A stretch of DNA of 25,563 nt, from IMG/VR virus record IMGVR_UViG_3300032116_001192, positions 1-25,563 of that record; one strand, given 5' to 3'. Positions 13,950 through 19,928 of this stretch are shown here, piece by piece. Position 1 is the first letter of the stretch. Every line of letters starts with the position of its first letter. Made by a program: the position numbers and the translations under genes. Source of the DNA: a virus. The notes under the pieces are model-generated. The model saw only the letters and a list, made by a program, of their open reading frames with translations. It made no database searches and had not been told where the DNA came from.

Positions 13950-14111
13950 TTAATTTGTTTCTTGCGCCAGCCCGTCATCAGCGGCCTCACACTTCTCACA
14001 GCCTGGGTGATCAGGATCCCTGCAGTCAGGGTTGGCCATCAGCCTGGCACGCTGCTGGTTCAAAAAGAGCTGCTCCATGCGCATCTCAATGATGTCTTGG
14101 TCATCTAGCAT
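13950..14111 (-). CDS. Micro-protein with Cys/His cluster between the terminase genes (53 aa)
   Basis: This 53-residue frame begins MLDDQDIIEMRMEQLFLNQQ (an acidic helix) and contains the cluster C30-x4-H35-x2-C38-x2-C41 in NPDCRDPDHPGCEKCEAAD. That spacing could bind one zinc ion. The start lies 11 nt inside the end of the small terminase gene and the TAA lies 8 nt before the large terminase start, so it fills the gap precisely. It may help packaging or be a separate regulator. I know of no named family, and the call rests on frame, coupling and composition. Confidence 0.65.
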   Translation of the reverse strand: MLDDQDIIEMRMEQLFLNQQRARLMANPDCRDPDHPGCEKCEAADDGLAQETN

Positions 14112-14550
14112 CGTCTGGCTCCACATCAGTCACGTCTGGTGCCATCACATTGATGCCAAGCACAGACGGCCTGTCCTCGTTGTCAGGGTTGTCCAGCAAG
14201 CCACTTGCCTTGGCCAGCAGCCGCAGCACCCCGACCTTGTCATACAGCTCGATCTCCAGCGTGCTGTATGTGTCGCCATCCTTGTCCTTCCGGGTCTGAA
14301 CCCGGATGTTCTTGATCGCGTGCAGCGCATGCTCCGGGATCTCATGGCTTGCCTTCACCTTGACATTGCCCTGGTCATCCCAGGACATGATGTCTGTCAG
14401 CTTGGTGTTGGCCATGGACAGCAGCGCATAAGCCACCGCCTCCTTGTTGGCCAGCAGGGTCGAGCTGCGCTCCAGTCGGCGCTGCACAGACCTCACCCCA
14501 CCCCAGTTGGTCAGGGGAGGGATGACACTGGTCTGTTTAGGCCTGGCCAT
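14101..14550 (-). CDS. terS: Terminase small subunit
   Basis: This 149-residue protein starts MARPKQTSVIPPLTNWGGVR, a basic N-terminus with a probable DNA-binding helical region. A helical centre follows (EAVAYALLSMANTKLTDIMSWD), then a beta segment (DTYSTLEIELYDKVGVLRLL) and an acidic tail (DNPDNEDRPS ... DVEPDDAR). KVGVLRLLAKASGLLD resembles the C-terminal portion common in small terminases. Small subunits bind the packaging site as rings and hand the DNA to the large subunit, which is encoded just downstream. The start overlaps the SSB-like gene stop (TGATG). Confidence 0.85.
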   Translation of the reverse strand: MARPKQTSVIPPLTNWGGVRSVQRRLERSSTLLANKEAVAYALLSMANTKLTDIMSWDDQGNVKVKASHEIPEHALHAIKNIRVQTRKDKDGDTYSTLEIELYDKVGVLRLLAKASGLLDNPDNEDRPSVLGINVMAPDVTDVEPDDAR

Positions 14551-14834: not shown

Positions 14835-15133
14835 TTACAAATGCTCCTTTTGGTTGATTGTCGTACAGGTTGGAAAAGTGGGGAAAATTTGAGGGGAACC
14901 CCCGGACGCTACCGTAGGGGGTGGGGGGGCAAGGGTCGCGTTCCGGGCGCGTCGTCGGGCGCGGATCGCAGGCGCACACGCTGGCGCATATAAGGCCGCC
15001 GGTCTGCCAGCAGCAGGACACGCCTCGATCTGCCCGGCTTGTACAAAACCCATACGTTCGTCTGATGGTTGGACAGACCGATTTAAACGGCCTACAACGC
15101 ATCGAATGGCTGGCTGGCTACCTGCGTACCAGC
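14835..15133. other. Non-coding 299-bp region between initiator and SSB-like gene
   Basis: I see no convincing gene here. The overlapping minus-strand frames are Arg/Pro/Cys-rich and lack ribosome sites. The region contains a G-rich tract on the plus strand (14917-14935), an inverted ACCCCC/GGGGGT pair (14899-14904 and 14917-14922), two direct CGGGCGCG copies (14944-14951 and 14956-14963) and a TTGTACAA palindrome (15039-15046). It lies just upstream of the terminase operon and downstream of the replication gene, so a packaging site, a late promoter or a transcription stop are all plausible. No good sigma-70 promoter was found. Confidence 0.6.
14917..14935 (+). other. Potential G-quadruplex motif
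   Basis: The tract GGGGGTGGGGGGGCAAGGG contains four runs of at least three G with loops of 1-3 nt, a canonical G4 pattern, on the plus strand. This is the template strand for the minus-strand terminase operon. It stands out because long homopolymer runs are otherwise rare in this window. Confidence 0.5.
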
Positions 15134-16150
15134 TCATGGTTTTGCAGGGCTTCCTGAGGCTTCCAGGTGCCTTGCCGTGGCATCGGATTGGTGCTCGATC
15201 ACTGCATTGATCCACCACTCCAGTCGTTTGGGGGGCTCGACACCCTCGCGCCTGGCCGCTGCCAGCAGGTCGTCAACCGCCTGCTCGACCTGACCGACAG
15301 TGAAGTCCAGGTCAGTCAGGTATCCGATCAACATTTCTTCGTTTTGGTTGTTCAGAACATTTAAACTTCTTTTAATAAATATATCTCTAATAACCTTCTG
15401 ACTAGATCCTGTTCGGTGTTTTGTACAACCCTCAGAGGTTGTTGATTTTTGCTCTCCAGGTTGTATCTCATCAATTTGAGAAGATGAGTTATCCACAGGC
15501 TGTTGGACTGCTTGTGCAACAACCTCTGGAGGTTGTATGGGAATGCCTTTGGACTGCCTCTTTTTGGCGATCTCTGCCTTCATCTTCTTGACCGTCAATG
15601 TGTCGTTGCCTGTTGGCATGGTGTACTCCTTTGGTTGTGGTTTGACTGACTTGAGTGCGCCTTGCATGAGCTTGGCGATTCGCTGTTGACCGGCCCTGCT
15701 GACTGGTTCTTCCATGGCTTTTTGGTCGATCTTTTGCATGACTGGTGGCCTCGTATCTTCAATGGTTGACGTGATGGTGATGGCATCTTGAGCGCTGATT
15801 GATGGGTCGTAGATGACCCGCCAGGTGTTCATGCGCTCGCCTGGCTTGGCCTTCCAGACCACTTCCAGGTAGCCCAGCTTGGTCAACTTGACCACTTGTT
15901 TGCTGATAGCTTGCTGGCTGACCTTGAGCTGCTCGGCCAGCTTTGCCTGGCCAACCCAGGTGATCCCGGCACGGTTGCAGTAGCTGCAGATCAGGATCAG
16001 GGCACGCATCATCCCCTCAGAAAGCCGCCTGTCAGTGCATGCGCGGATCGGGATCACGGCCAGCTTGCGCTGGTCTGGGATCGGATCACGCTCTTTGATG
16101 CGCGGCTTCTTGGGGATGCTGAAGGGCACGATGTTGTCAATCATGGGCAT
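15134..16150 (-). CDS. Putative replication initiator (winged-helix protein, about 338 aa)
   Basis: The N-terminal half carries a winged helix-turn-helix (VIPIRACTDRRLSEGMMRAL, then WVGQAKLAEQLKVSQQAISK, then the wing GYLEVVWKAKPGERMNTWRV). A long hydrophilic linker follows (about residues 130-250). The C-terminal helical domain holds YLTDLDFTVGQVEQAVDDLL and LEWWINAVIEHQ. This layout of DNA-binding N-domain, linker and small C-domain is that of lambda O or plasmid-type initiators, which bind repeats and recruit the host helicase. The linker-coding DNA contains a DnaA box, iteron-like dyads and an AT-rich tract, which strongly supports the role. The ATG at 16150 has TGAG upstream; GTG at 16159 and ATG at 16144 are alternatives. 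A transcription regulator cannot be excluded. Confidence 0.72.
   Translation of the reverse strand: MPMIDNIVPFSIPKKPRIKERDPIPDQRKLAVIPIRACTDRRLSEGMMRALILICSYCNRAGITWVGQAKLAEQLKVSQQAISKQVVKLTKLGYLEVVWKAKPGERMNTWRVIYDPSISAQDAITITSTIEDTRPPVMQKIDQKAMEEPVSRAGQQRIAKLMQGALKSVKPQPKEYTMPTGNDTLTVKKMKAEIAKKRQSKGIPIQPPEVVAQAVQQPVDNSSSQIDEIQPGEQKSTTSEGCTKHRTGSSQKVIRDIFIKRSLNVLNNQNEEMLIGYLTDLDFTVGQVEQAVDDLLAAARREGVEPPKRLEWWINAVIEHQSDATARHLEASGSPAKP
15421..15442. repeat. Iteron-like inverted repeat, copy 1
   Basis: TTGTACAACCCTCAGAGGTTGT joins an 8-bp palindrome TTGTACAA with the inverted pair ACAACC-C-TC/GAGGTTGT. It matches the pattern of the copy at 15513-15537. A further half-site (CCAGGTTGTA) lies at 15456-15465. 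Confidence 0.65.
15489..15497 (+). promoter_or_regulatory. DnaA box
   Basis: TTATCCACA is a perfect match to the strong E. coli DnaA box. It lies between the two iteron-like repeats, within 100 bp of the AT-rich tract. Confidence 0.75.
15513..15537. repeat. Iteron-like inverted repeat, copy 2
   Basis: TTGTGCAAC is followed by ACAACCTC-TG-GAGGTTGT, a perfect 8-bp inverted repeat with a 2-nt centre (15519-15536). It shares the TTGTRCAA plus ACAACC/GGTTGT architecture with copy 1. Confidence 0.65.
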
Positions 16151-16370
16151 TGCGCTCACGGTAGATGTCCTTCATGTGCTGCCTGATGCGCTCGGCACTG
16201 CCTTGGCCATAGATCTTCTCGCTGGCCAGCAGCATGCGCTCCACCATGGCCTTGTCCTTCTTGTAGTCCCAGGCTGCCAGGATGTCCCTGGCCTGGCCAC
16301 GCTCGGTGATCCAGCGCTCGGGCAGTGGGCCTGTGTTCTTTGGGTAGTGCGGCTTCCATGGCCGCTTCAC
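16137..16370 (-). CDS. Small basic protein of unknown function (77 aa)
   Basis: The protein starts at a GTG that overlaps the stop of the upstream gene by 4 bp (GTGA). It has a Pro/Lys-rich N-terminus (KRPWKPHYPKNTGPLPERW) and then a helical part (QARDILAAWDYKKDKAMVER, then IYGQGSAERIRQHMKDIYRE). A longer frame that extends upstream would overlap the 63-residue gene and has an atypical Cys/Arg-rich sequence, so I reject it. The function is not recognised. The position directly before the initiator gene suggests a role in replication or its control, which is only inference. Confidence 0.7.
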   Translation of the reverse strand: MKRPWKPHYPKNTGPLPERWITERGQARDILAAWDYKKDKAMVERMLLASEKIYGQGSAERIRQHMKDIYRERNAHD

Positions 16371-16558
16371 TTGAGCTTGATCGCGTTGATCACGCGCTGG
16401 GCAATGGTTGGGTTCTGATCGGCTTTGATGCTCTCGGCAAGGTGCTTGCGCAGCCACACAACGCCGCCCAGGCGCGTCCATTCCCTGTGCTCATGAGGTC
16501 TGAGCCTTGCGCTGACTGTTCGGGTCACGCCCGTCATCTCACTCTTTGGTCTTGGCAT
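16367..16558 (-). CDS. Small putative DNA-binding protein (63 aa)
   Basis: The sequence MPRPKSEMTGVTRTVSARLR, then EWTRLGGVVWLRKHLAESIK, suggests a short beta strand (RTVSARL) followed by two helices, compatible with a ribbon-helix-helix fold. Such small basic proteins are common in phage early operons and often regulate transcription. The start lies 20 nt inside the end of the upstream coiled-coil gene and the stop overlaps the next GTG, so it is tightly coupled. No close family is named here. Confidence 0.72.
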   Translation of the reverse strand: MPRPKSEMTGVTRTVSARLRPHEHREWTRLGGVVWLRKHLAESIKADQNPTIAQRVINAIKLK

Positions 16559-16775
16559 AGTCTTCTTTCAAAATCTCGTTGTTGAGCTCCAGGGCAATGC
16601 GTCGCACCCCTTTGAGCAGCTCATGCAGGTTGTCCACGGTCTCCATCTCCCGCTCAAGCGCGTCTTTGAGCAGCGCGATCTGGTGGTGCAGGTTGCGCAG
16701 CTCACCGTTGGCCTCTTGCGTGTCGCGGATGATCCCGTCGTCATCCCGGAATAGCTTGACGTAGCTCACATGCAT
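16539..16775 (-). CDS. Short coiled-coil protein (78 aa)
   Basis: After MHVSYVKLFRDDDGIIRDTQ comes a continuous amphipathic helix (ANGELRNLHHQIALLKDALE, then METVDNLHELLKGVRRIALE) ending in an acidic/basic tail, typical of a dimeric coiled coil. I prefer the ATG at 16775 because GGAG lies 6 nt upstream. An upstream ATG at 16829 would overlap the sigma-like gene by 64 nt. Next to a sigma-like protein, a modulator of transcription is a possibility, but nothing in the sequence shows it. Confidence 0.68.
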   Translation of the reverse strand: MHVSYVKLFRDDDGIIRDTQEANGELRNLHHQIALLKDALEREMETVDNLHELLKGVRRIALELNNEILKEDYAKTKE

Positions 16776-17215
16776 CGCTTGCTCCATTTCCAGTGGTTCC
16801 AGGTGGTCACGTCGCAGTCGAGCTCCCACAGATGCACCCCGGTGATCTTCTGCTGGTGACGGCGCAGCTTGCGCATGCCCTTGAGGTAGATCTGCCTGGC
16901 TCGCTCTTGTGTGCAGCCGAGCTCATGGCCAGCCTCTTTGAGCGTCAGTTCGTCATGCACGATCAGCTTGATGACCAGCATCTCTCGATCTGTCAGGGCT
17001 GCGTCAGCCAGGATTTTGAACAACAGATCTTTGGCCTCAACCAGATCCATGTCGTCCTGCAACTGCCATGACCACTTGTGCCGGGGCAGCTCGGGCAGCT
17101 CTTCATCCCGGCTGTACCAAATCTTTTTGACCTCGCTGGGCAAAGTCTCGGTCATGAGCTGGCCGTAGTAGGGCGAGCCACGACCGTTGCGGTTTACTGT
17201 GTTTTTGCCAGTCAT
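16766..17215 (-). CDS. Sigma-70 region 4 family protein (149 aa)
   Basis: Residues about 72-118 match sigma region 4: LTDREMLVIKLIVHDELTLK, then EAGHELGCTQERARQIYLKG, then MRKLRR, with the helix-turn-helix at about 90-112. Region 4 contacts the -35 box and the beta flap of RNA polymerase. The first 70 residues do not look like region 2, so the protein is probably not a complete sigma factor. It may redirect host polymerase or act on late promoters. The C-terminal tail is Trp/Cys-rich (VHLWELDCDVTTWNHWKW), an unusual extension. The ATG overlaps the stop of the membrane micro-gene upstream. Confidence 0.82.
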   Translation of the reverse strand: MTGKNTVNRNGRGSPYYGQLMTETLPSEVKKIWYSRDEELPELPRHKWSWQLQDDMDLVEAKDLLFKILADAALTDREMLVIKLIVHDELTLKEAGHELGCTQERARQIYLKGMRKLRRHQQKITGVHLWELDCDVTTWNHWKWSKRCM

Positions 17216-19253: not shown

Positions 19254-19928
19254 ATGACACCCCACACCGGCAAATTCGTCGCCTACTACCGCGTTTCAAC
19301 CGACCGCCAAGGCCAGTCAGGCCTCGGCCTTGATGCCCAGCGCGAGCGCATCATGACCTACCTCAATGGTGGCAGTTGGTCTCTGATCGGTGAGTTCACC
19401 GAGGTCGAGTCGGGCCGCATGAACGATCGCCCGGCGCTGGAGGATGCGGTCAAGCTGTGCAAGCGCGAGAAGGCCACCCTGGTGGTGGCCACCCTCGACC
19501 GTCTGACCCGTGATCTGGCGTTCGGCGCGACCCTTTTGAACGACACCAAGGTGCGCTTTGTCTGCGCCGACTTCCCCGAGGCCAGCCGCGAGATGCTGCA
19601 GATGCGCATGGTGTTTGCCGAGTGGGAGGCACGCAAGATCGGTGAGCGCACCAAGCTGGCGCTGGCCGAGCTCAAGAAGAAGGGCAAGAAGCTGGGCTCA
19701 CCCACCCCCAAGATCGGTTCGGCTGCCGGGGTCAAGGTGGTCAAGGCCAAGGCCGACAAGTACGCCGACAGGGTGGGCCCCATCGTGCGCGACATCATCC
19801 GCAGGTCGGGTGCCGACACCATGCGCGACATCGCCGCCGCCTTGGAAGCCCGTGGCGTGGCCACCCCGCGTGGCAACACCAACTGGGGCCCGACTCAGGT
19901 TTCCAACCTCCTGAAGCGCATCAAATGA
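19254..19928 (+). CDS. Serine recombinase (resolvase/invertase family)
   Basis: The catalytic N-terminal domain shows YYRVSTDRQ with the nucleophile Ser15, GLDAQRERI, TEVESGRMNDRP, and ATLDRLTRDLAF with the active-site arginines near 83 and 86. A long helix with EWEARKIGERTKLALAELKK (about residues 123-145) follows, and a C-terminal DNA-binding part ends in GPTQVSNLLKRIK. At 224 residues it belongs to the small serine recombinases (resolvase, invertase or related), not the 450-600 residue integrases. It could resolve dimers, invert or delete DNA, or integrate at a compact site. GGAGG lies 7 nt before the ATG. Confidence 0.88.
   Translation: MTPHTGKFVAYYRVSTDRQGQSGLGLDAQRERIMTYLNGGSWSLIGEFTEVESGRMNDRPALEDAVKLCKREKATLVVATLDRLTRDLAFGATLLNDTKVRFVCADFPEASREMLQMRMVFAEWEARKIGERTKLALAELKKKGKKLGSPTPKIGSAAGVKVVKAKADKYADRVGPIVRDIIRRSGADTMRDIAAALEARGVATPRGNTNWGPTQVSNLLKRIK

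Follow-up and report, generated by a model that had tools for sequence, protein, structure and literature searches.

A probable replication origin inside the initiator gene of a large group of small and almost entirely uncultured bacterial viruses

In the 25,563-nucleotide stretch of viral DNA analyzed here (IMG/VR record IMGVR_UViG_3300032116_001192; hereafter the window), a replication origin very probably lies inside the gene for its own initiator, which we call rep. An origin within this gene had been put forward as the original prediction, and it is now supported by an array of repeats in the DNA encoding a linker, by synonymous constraint on that DNA and by a match between the recognition helix of Rep and the half-sites of the array. 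This support comes from sequence comparison and not from mapped replication. Only rarely can a phage origin be placed by its sequence alone, and here comparison alone points to one for about 540 contigs.

The initiator gene and the motifs in its linker DNA

The gene and the DNA-binding part of its product are as follows.

15134..16159, minus strand: replication-initiator-like gene rep, an open reading frame of 341 aa with a GTG start
15812..16048, minus strand: winged-helix DNA-binding domain, residues 38-116, AlphaFold2 pLDDT mostly 80-93
15875..15916, minus strand: recognition helix, residues 82-95, a helix in the AlphaFold2 model; residues 82, 83 and 87 track the half-site class

The winged helix is followed by a helical segment, a linker (203-259) and a helical C-terminal domain (about 270-335). 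The linker, described earlier as low in structure, is predicted to be disordered in the AlphaFold2 model, and the disordered stretch coincides with the part encoded by the array. Profile matches of Rep were weak: the best was a PHROGs replication initiation protein (E=1.8e-6), and in the Pfam scan HTH_36 and other helix-turn-helix families also matched, HTH_36 below its own cut-off. The winged helix has many structural neighbours. They include the initiator N-terminal domain 4pql/4pt7 (Z 8.1-8.2), which we take to be that of pSK41-type RepA and which scored no better than other winged helices, as well as MarR- and LexA-like repressors. A separate model of the C-terminal domain contained three helices, for which a fold search returned no significant match; in RepA_N plasmid initiators this domain is a compact one of five helices and contacts primase. 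An Rfam search of the window found nothing.

The linker DNA and the adjoining tract hold the following motifs.

15519..15536, no strand: palindrome 1, ACAACCTCTGGAGGTTGT (ACAACC-N6-GGTTGT), conserved in relatives
15425..15442, no strand: palindrome 2, ACAACCCTCAGAGGTTGT (ACAACC-N6-GGTTGT), in a reading frame different from that of palindrome 1
15459..15464, no strand: single half-site GGTTGT between the palindromes, seen in the sequence
15346..15351, no strand: half-site GGTTGT bordering the AT tract on its far side, seen in the sequence
15489..15497, plus strand: perfect DnaA box TTATCCACA, translated on the minus strand as VDN
15348..15402, no strand: AT-rich tract, a probable unwinding element, within which lies the 45-mer of lowest stability in the 25.6 kb contig

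Both palindromes and the DnaA box had been predicted, and both findings stand; the box is the sole perfect one in the window (expected 0.06). The third half-site is also real, although it starts at 15459 and not at 15456 as first given. Two further elements of the prediction fared less well. The TTGTRCAA-type sequences TTGTACAA (15421) and TTGTGCAA (15512, not 15513) do adjoin the palindromes and the inverted CTCATC/GATGAG pair (TATCTCATC/GATGAGTTA) is present at 15464/15483, but in distant relatives neither the former as a separate unit nor the latter was found, and both were rejected as functional units. The AT tract, with a nearest-neighbour energy of -46.9 against a contig mean of -67.7 (sd 4.2, 45-mers), does contain rare codons as claimed (ATA 2.4, AGA 2.8 and TTA 1.2 per 1000) and is conserved in relatives. 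In 20,000 synonymous shuffles that re-drew the codons of rep by their usage in the window, neither two such palindromes nor seven half-sites ever arose; a DnaA box appeared by chance in 2.9% of them.

Constraint on the linker DNA and its match with the recognition helix

Protein searches of viral contigs reached about 540 loci or contigs, with one cultured relative. Our comparative set comprised 167 distinct full-length relatives, and a stricter set used for enrichment comprised 142 distinct proteins fetched by protein alone, without use of the linker DNA. A candidate locus, L011, was discarded as a chance tblastn match, and of the contigs fetched by a degenerate DNA pattern, most of those with a match on a single strand lacked the gene and were probably chance hits. 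A collection of 84,980 species genomes of bacteria and archaea contained no full Rep relative and yielded one weak partial match confined to the helix-turn-helix, and none was found in a plasmid collection. Methylophilales phage MEP301 (MW452941) was the sole match to Rep among known cultured or annotated phages. The absence from bacterial genomes fits a lytic lifestyle; this remains an inference, as a serine recombinase gene with a resolvase domain is present at 19254-19928.

Relatives with the same protein domains but without the repeats and DnaA box had been named beforehand as evidence that would count against an origin. This condition is not fulfilled among the 167 full-length relatives, all of which have linker half-sites of a recognisable class, those of L248 in degenerate form only. 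In the strict set of 142, half-sites of a protein's own class occur at 20.8 per kb in the linker, 1.0 in the rest of the gene and 0.7 in the flanks, an enrichment of about 29-fold over flanks. Perfect DnaA boxes numbered 99 in the linkers, none in the rest of the gene and two in 617 kb of flanks; 82 of the 142 linkers have a perfect box and 130 have one with at most one mismatch.

That the linker is constrained as DNA had also been proposed, with a comparison of synonymous sites in relatives as the check, and this check was passed in the following block.

15422..15541, no strand: block of lowest synonymous divergence (codons 207-246, pS 0.137), taken as the origin core

The mean for the gene is 0.356 and none of 5000 codon permutations reached a value as low, even though amino-acid identity in this block is among the lowest of the gene. 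Across relatives, each of the three reading frames is used by palindromes of the main class (64/59/103), indicating that the DNA is what is conserved. The DnaA box always occurs in the same frame and strand, as VD(N/K), so a share of its conservation may lie at the peptide level. Synonymous variants of this peptide exist, and it is spelled GTG-GAT-AA in 131 of 256 cases against about 11% expected. The AT tract comes after the median half-site in 163/167 relatives. In 8 of the 11 contigs tested, no 45-mer of the whole contig is less stable than that of this tract; the window is one of these, as are two contigs (G007 and G008) whose end repeats suggest that they are complete. In the other three the weakest point is elsewhere. 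Outside rep, the long contigs hold only two single palindrome copies and no second array was seen. Cumulative GC skew, another check suggested at the outset, gave no signal at rep, with no consistent extremum in 14 long contigs rotated to this gene.

A de novo search of each linker yielded inverted repeats, whose half-sites fell into five classes. The class ACAACC (107 proteins) goes with Q82, Q83 and K or R87, GCAACC (31 proteins) with R82, Q83 and K or R87, and GGACAC (23 proteins) with R82, Q83 and N87, while GTTATC (five proteins) goes with Q82 and P83, and TCAACC (one protein) with K82 and Q83. Class and residues 82/83/87 agree in 167/167 proteins, with three assignments resting on a one-motif margin and a fourth (L248) being a tie. 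On a tree for which helix and linker had been left out, 14 class changes are required. In a tree-aware test on supported branches, a non-canonical half-site accompanied a non-QQ helix in 7/7 independent pairs (p 0.016), and GGACAC accompanied N87 in 5/5 pairs (p 0.06). A scan of all 183 columns before the internal start described below, with no residues preselected, placed 82 at the top, followed in order by 111 (in the wing), 87 and 86. Since the half-site class matches these residues throughout, Rep probably reads and binds the array in its own linker DNA, a conclusion drawn from covariation. Exchange of helix and array as one recombining module would inflate the change count and leave the conclusion the same. 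The family offers a natural recognition code, in which changes at three residues track half-site changes in seven independent comparisons. This opens the specificity of initiator for origin, the way it evolves and the switch from host to phage replication to direct testing. In a minor class, linkers (L041, L044, L045, L049 and L023) contain up to four perfect DnaA boxes each, and the half-site of the corresponding Rep, GATAAC, forms part of TGTGGATAAC, so that sites there might be shared by DnaA and Rep or contested between them.

An internal start codon in rep

An internal start codon, which had not figured in the original prediction, was found upstream of the linker together with its signals.

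15617..15619, minus strand: internal start codon ATG at residue 181, ATG in 162/167 relatives and GTG in 4/167
15626..15632, minus strand: Shine-Dalgarno AAAGGAG belonging to the internal start; the leader upstream of it is A/C-rich and has little structure
15134-15619, minus strand: 161-residue reading frame from the internal start, without the winged helix

The one remaining relative has a GTG one codon upstream of this position. The mean Shine-Dalgarno match is 5.1 nt at the internal start and 2.4 at other in-frame ATGs, its distance to the start varies from 10 to 15 nt and hence falls in different phases, and the folding energy of the leader is -4.2 versus -11.4 kcal/mol. Synonymous divergence dips here as well. 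Taken together, the conserved start codon, the Shine-Dalgarno, the weak leader structure and the synonymous dip suggest that rep probably encodes a second product of 161 residues, consisting of the linker and the C-terminal domain, which annotation missed. A third, smaller synonymous dip (0.16) lies in the C-terminal domain, at codons 296-305 (about 15245-15274).

A model for initiation, alternatives and known systems

In the mechanism that we propose, Rep, probably as dimers, would bind through its winged helix to the palindromic half-sites of its own linker DNA, host DnaA would occupy the adjacent DnaA box, and the AT tract just downstream would melt. Host DnaB-DnaC and polymerase III would then be recruited through DnaA, the C-terminal domain of Rep or both, and circular replication would begin. 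We infer a host source from the lack of any recognised gene for a helicase, loader or polymerase: no DnaB_C, IstB/DnaC, PolA or lambda P (PF06992) profile was found in 17 records, the window itself being a partial genome. A loader may have gone unrecognised, and the small unassigned genes beside rep (16137-16481, 16539-16829) could include one. The disordered linker peptide would tolerate any sequence that the DNA dictates, and the short form could tune or assist initiation. A more speculative reading, to which we give only limited credence, is that the locus nests three functions, namely a full initiator, an internal-start protein without the DNA-binding domain and an origin, and that at this DnaA-assisted phage origin the short protein takes the place of the missing step of helicase loading or governs it. 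If so, the five half-site classes would be replication compatibility groups, driven by competition among related phages or by origin-targeting parasites.

Could the array instead be an operator, at which Rep represses or roadblocks transcription inside its own gene while replication starts elsewhere? The covariation with the helix makes it probable that Rep reads the array but does not tell what its binding does, and the structural neighbours of the winged helix include winged helices of MarR- or LexA-like repressor type. However, an array, a DnaA box and the least stable DNA in fixed order have the layout of an origin, operators as a rule lie over promoters and not midway in a coding region, and the long contigs showed no second array; we regard an operator as improbable. 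A packaging (pac) or partition site is a still weaker candidate. The small terminase gene (14101-14550) is about 600 bp away and the contig of one relative ends inside the AT tract, but the ends of other long contigs lie elsewhere, the window proteins that were scanned included no recognised partition gene, and the half-sites covary with the recognition helix of Rep.

Least credible of all is that conservation serves the linker peptide and that the DNA motifs are its by-product. The recurrence of VD(N/K) in linkers, in some cases with synonymous variants, is what can be said for it. Yet the same palindrome encodes different peptides in its three frames, the minimum of synonymous divergence falls in a stretch of low amino-acid identity, the synonymous shuffles produced no palindrome pair, and the peptide concerned is predicted to be disordered. 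We thus retain an origin inside rep as the preferred reading, and its best description is one that works like those of lambda O or pSK41 RepA with the addition of a DnaA box, while belonging to neither family by profile.

The resemblance to lambda ori, noted in the original prediction, holds in that gene O likewise carries initiator-binding repeats and an AT-rich tract mid-gene, and extra iterons lengthen the encoded protein in lambdoid O (PMC7466680, PMC3985674). It does not extend to the protein family: a search with Phage_rep_O (PF04492) gave no hit at E<=1, whether in the window or in six related records, and PHROGs O-like matches of Rep were weak (E 6e-4). Moreover, the DnaA box lies here inside the array, whereas the reported lambda DnaA sites are downstream of the pO promoter (PMC3985674), and the present family has several half-site specificities, an internal start and, in the 17 records, no lambda P. 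With pSK41-type RepA_N initiators, Rep shares an N-terminal winged helix, an ori-encoded central linker and a separate C-terminal domain, and in pSK41-type RepA the winged helix binds Rep boxes central in rep (PMC5703833). In contrast, RepA_N (PF06970) had no match to Rep at E<=1 and none in the Pfam scan, DnaA boxes were not detected in staphylococcal plasmids (PMC5703833), and the replicon there is a plasmid and here a phage.

In the ICP1 PLE satellites, the DNA-binding domain of RepA and the iterons also covary and swap as a module, but the origin is intergenic, not inside repA, and the protein has a RepA_N domain (PMC8263062). The pIGRK pair RepR/RepR' likewise involves an internal in-frame start, giving an N-terminally truncated, inhibitory initiator. 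RepR' still binds DNA (PMC6854812), whereas here the start is inferred only and the short form would lose the whole winged helix. We found no paper in the open-access literature describing this phage origin family.

The label of a BPP-1-like podophage was not upheld. The terminase is 74% identical to that of MEP301 and 42% or less to those of the next cultured phages, and MEP301 also shares a similar gene set and a Rep winged helix at 38% identity. Unlike Rep, its gp55 (L012 34057-34662) has 201 residues, no linker array and no DnaA box, which makes this distant phage the only family member without linker, array and box. No array was found among repeats near gp55, and no text on 'origin' was found in the MEP301 paper (PMC8024684). 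Without a linker array or DnaA box, the origin of MEP301 must be arranged differently.

Several features of the surrounding DNA and of a close relative were also observed. The non-coding DNA between rep and an SSB-like gene (about 15035-15100) is highly conserved in close relatives (TTTAAATCGGTCTGTCC ... ACGAACGTATGGGTTTTGTACAAG), and one of the proteins encoded in the gene cluster upstream of rep is small and contains a sigma-70 region 4 domain (16766-17215). In the closely related 33.1 kb contig IMGVR_UViG_3300049009_000318, the sequence breaks inside rep at the AT tract (end of locus L008, start of L010). Its two ends fall one base apart on the window sequence, possibly reflecting an assembly break in a circular genome.
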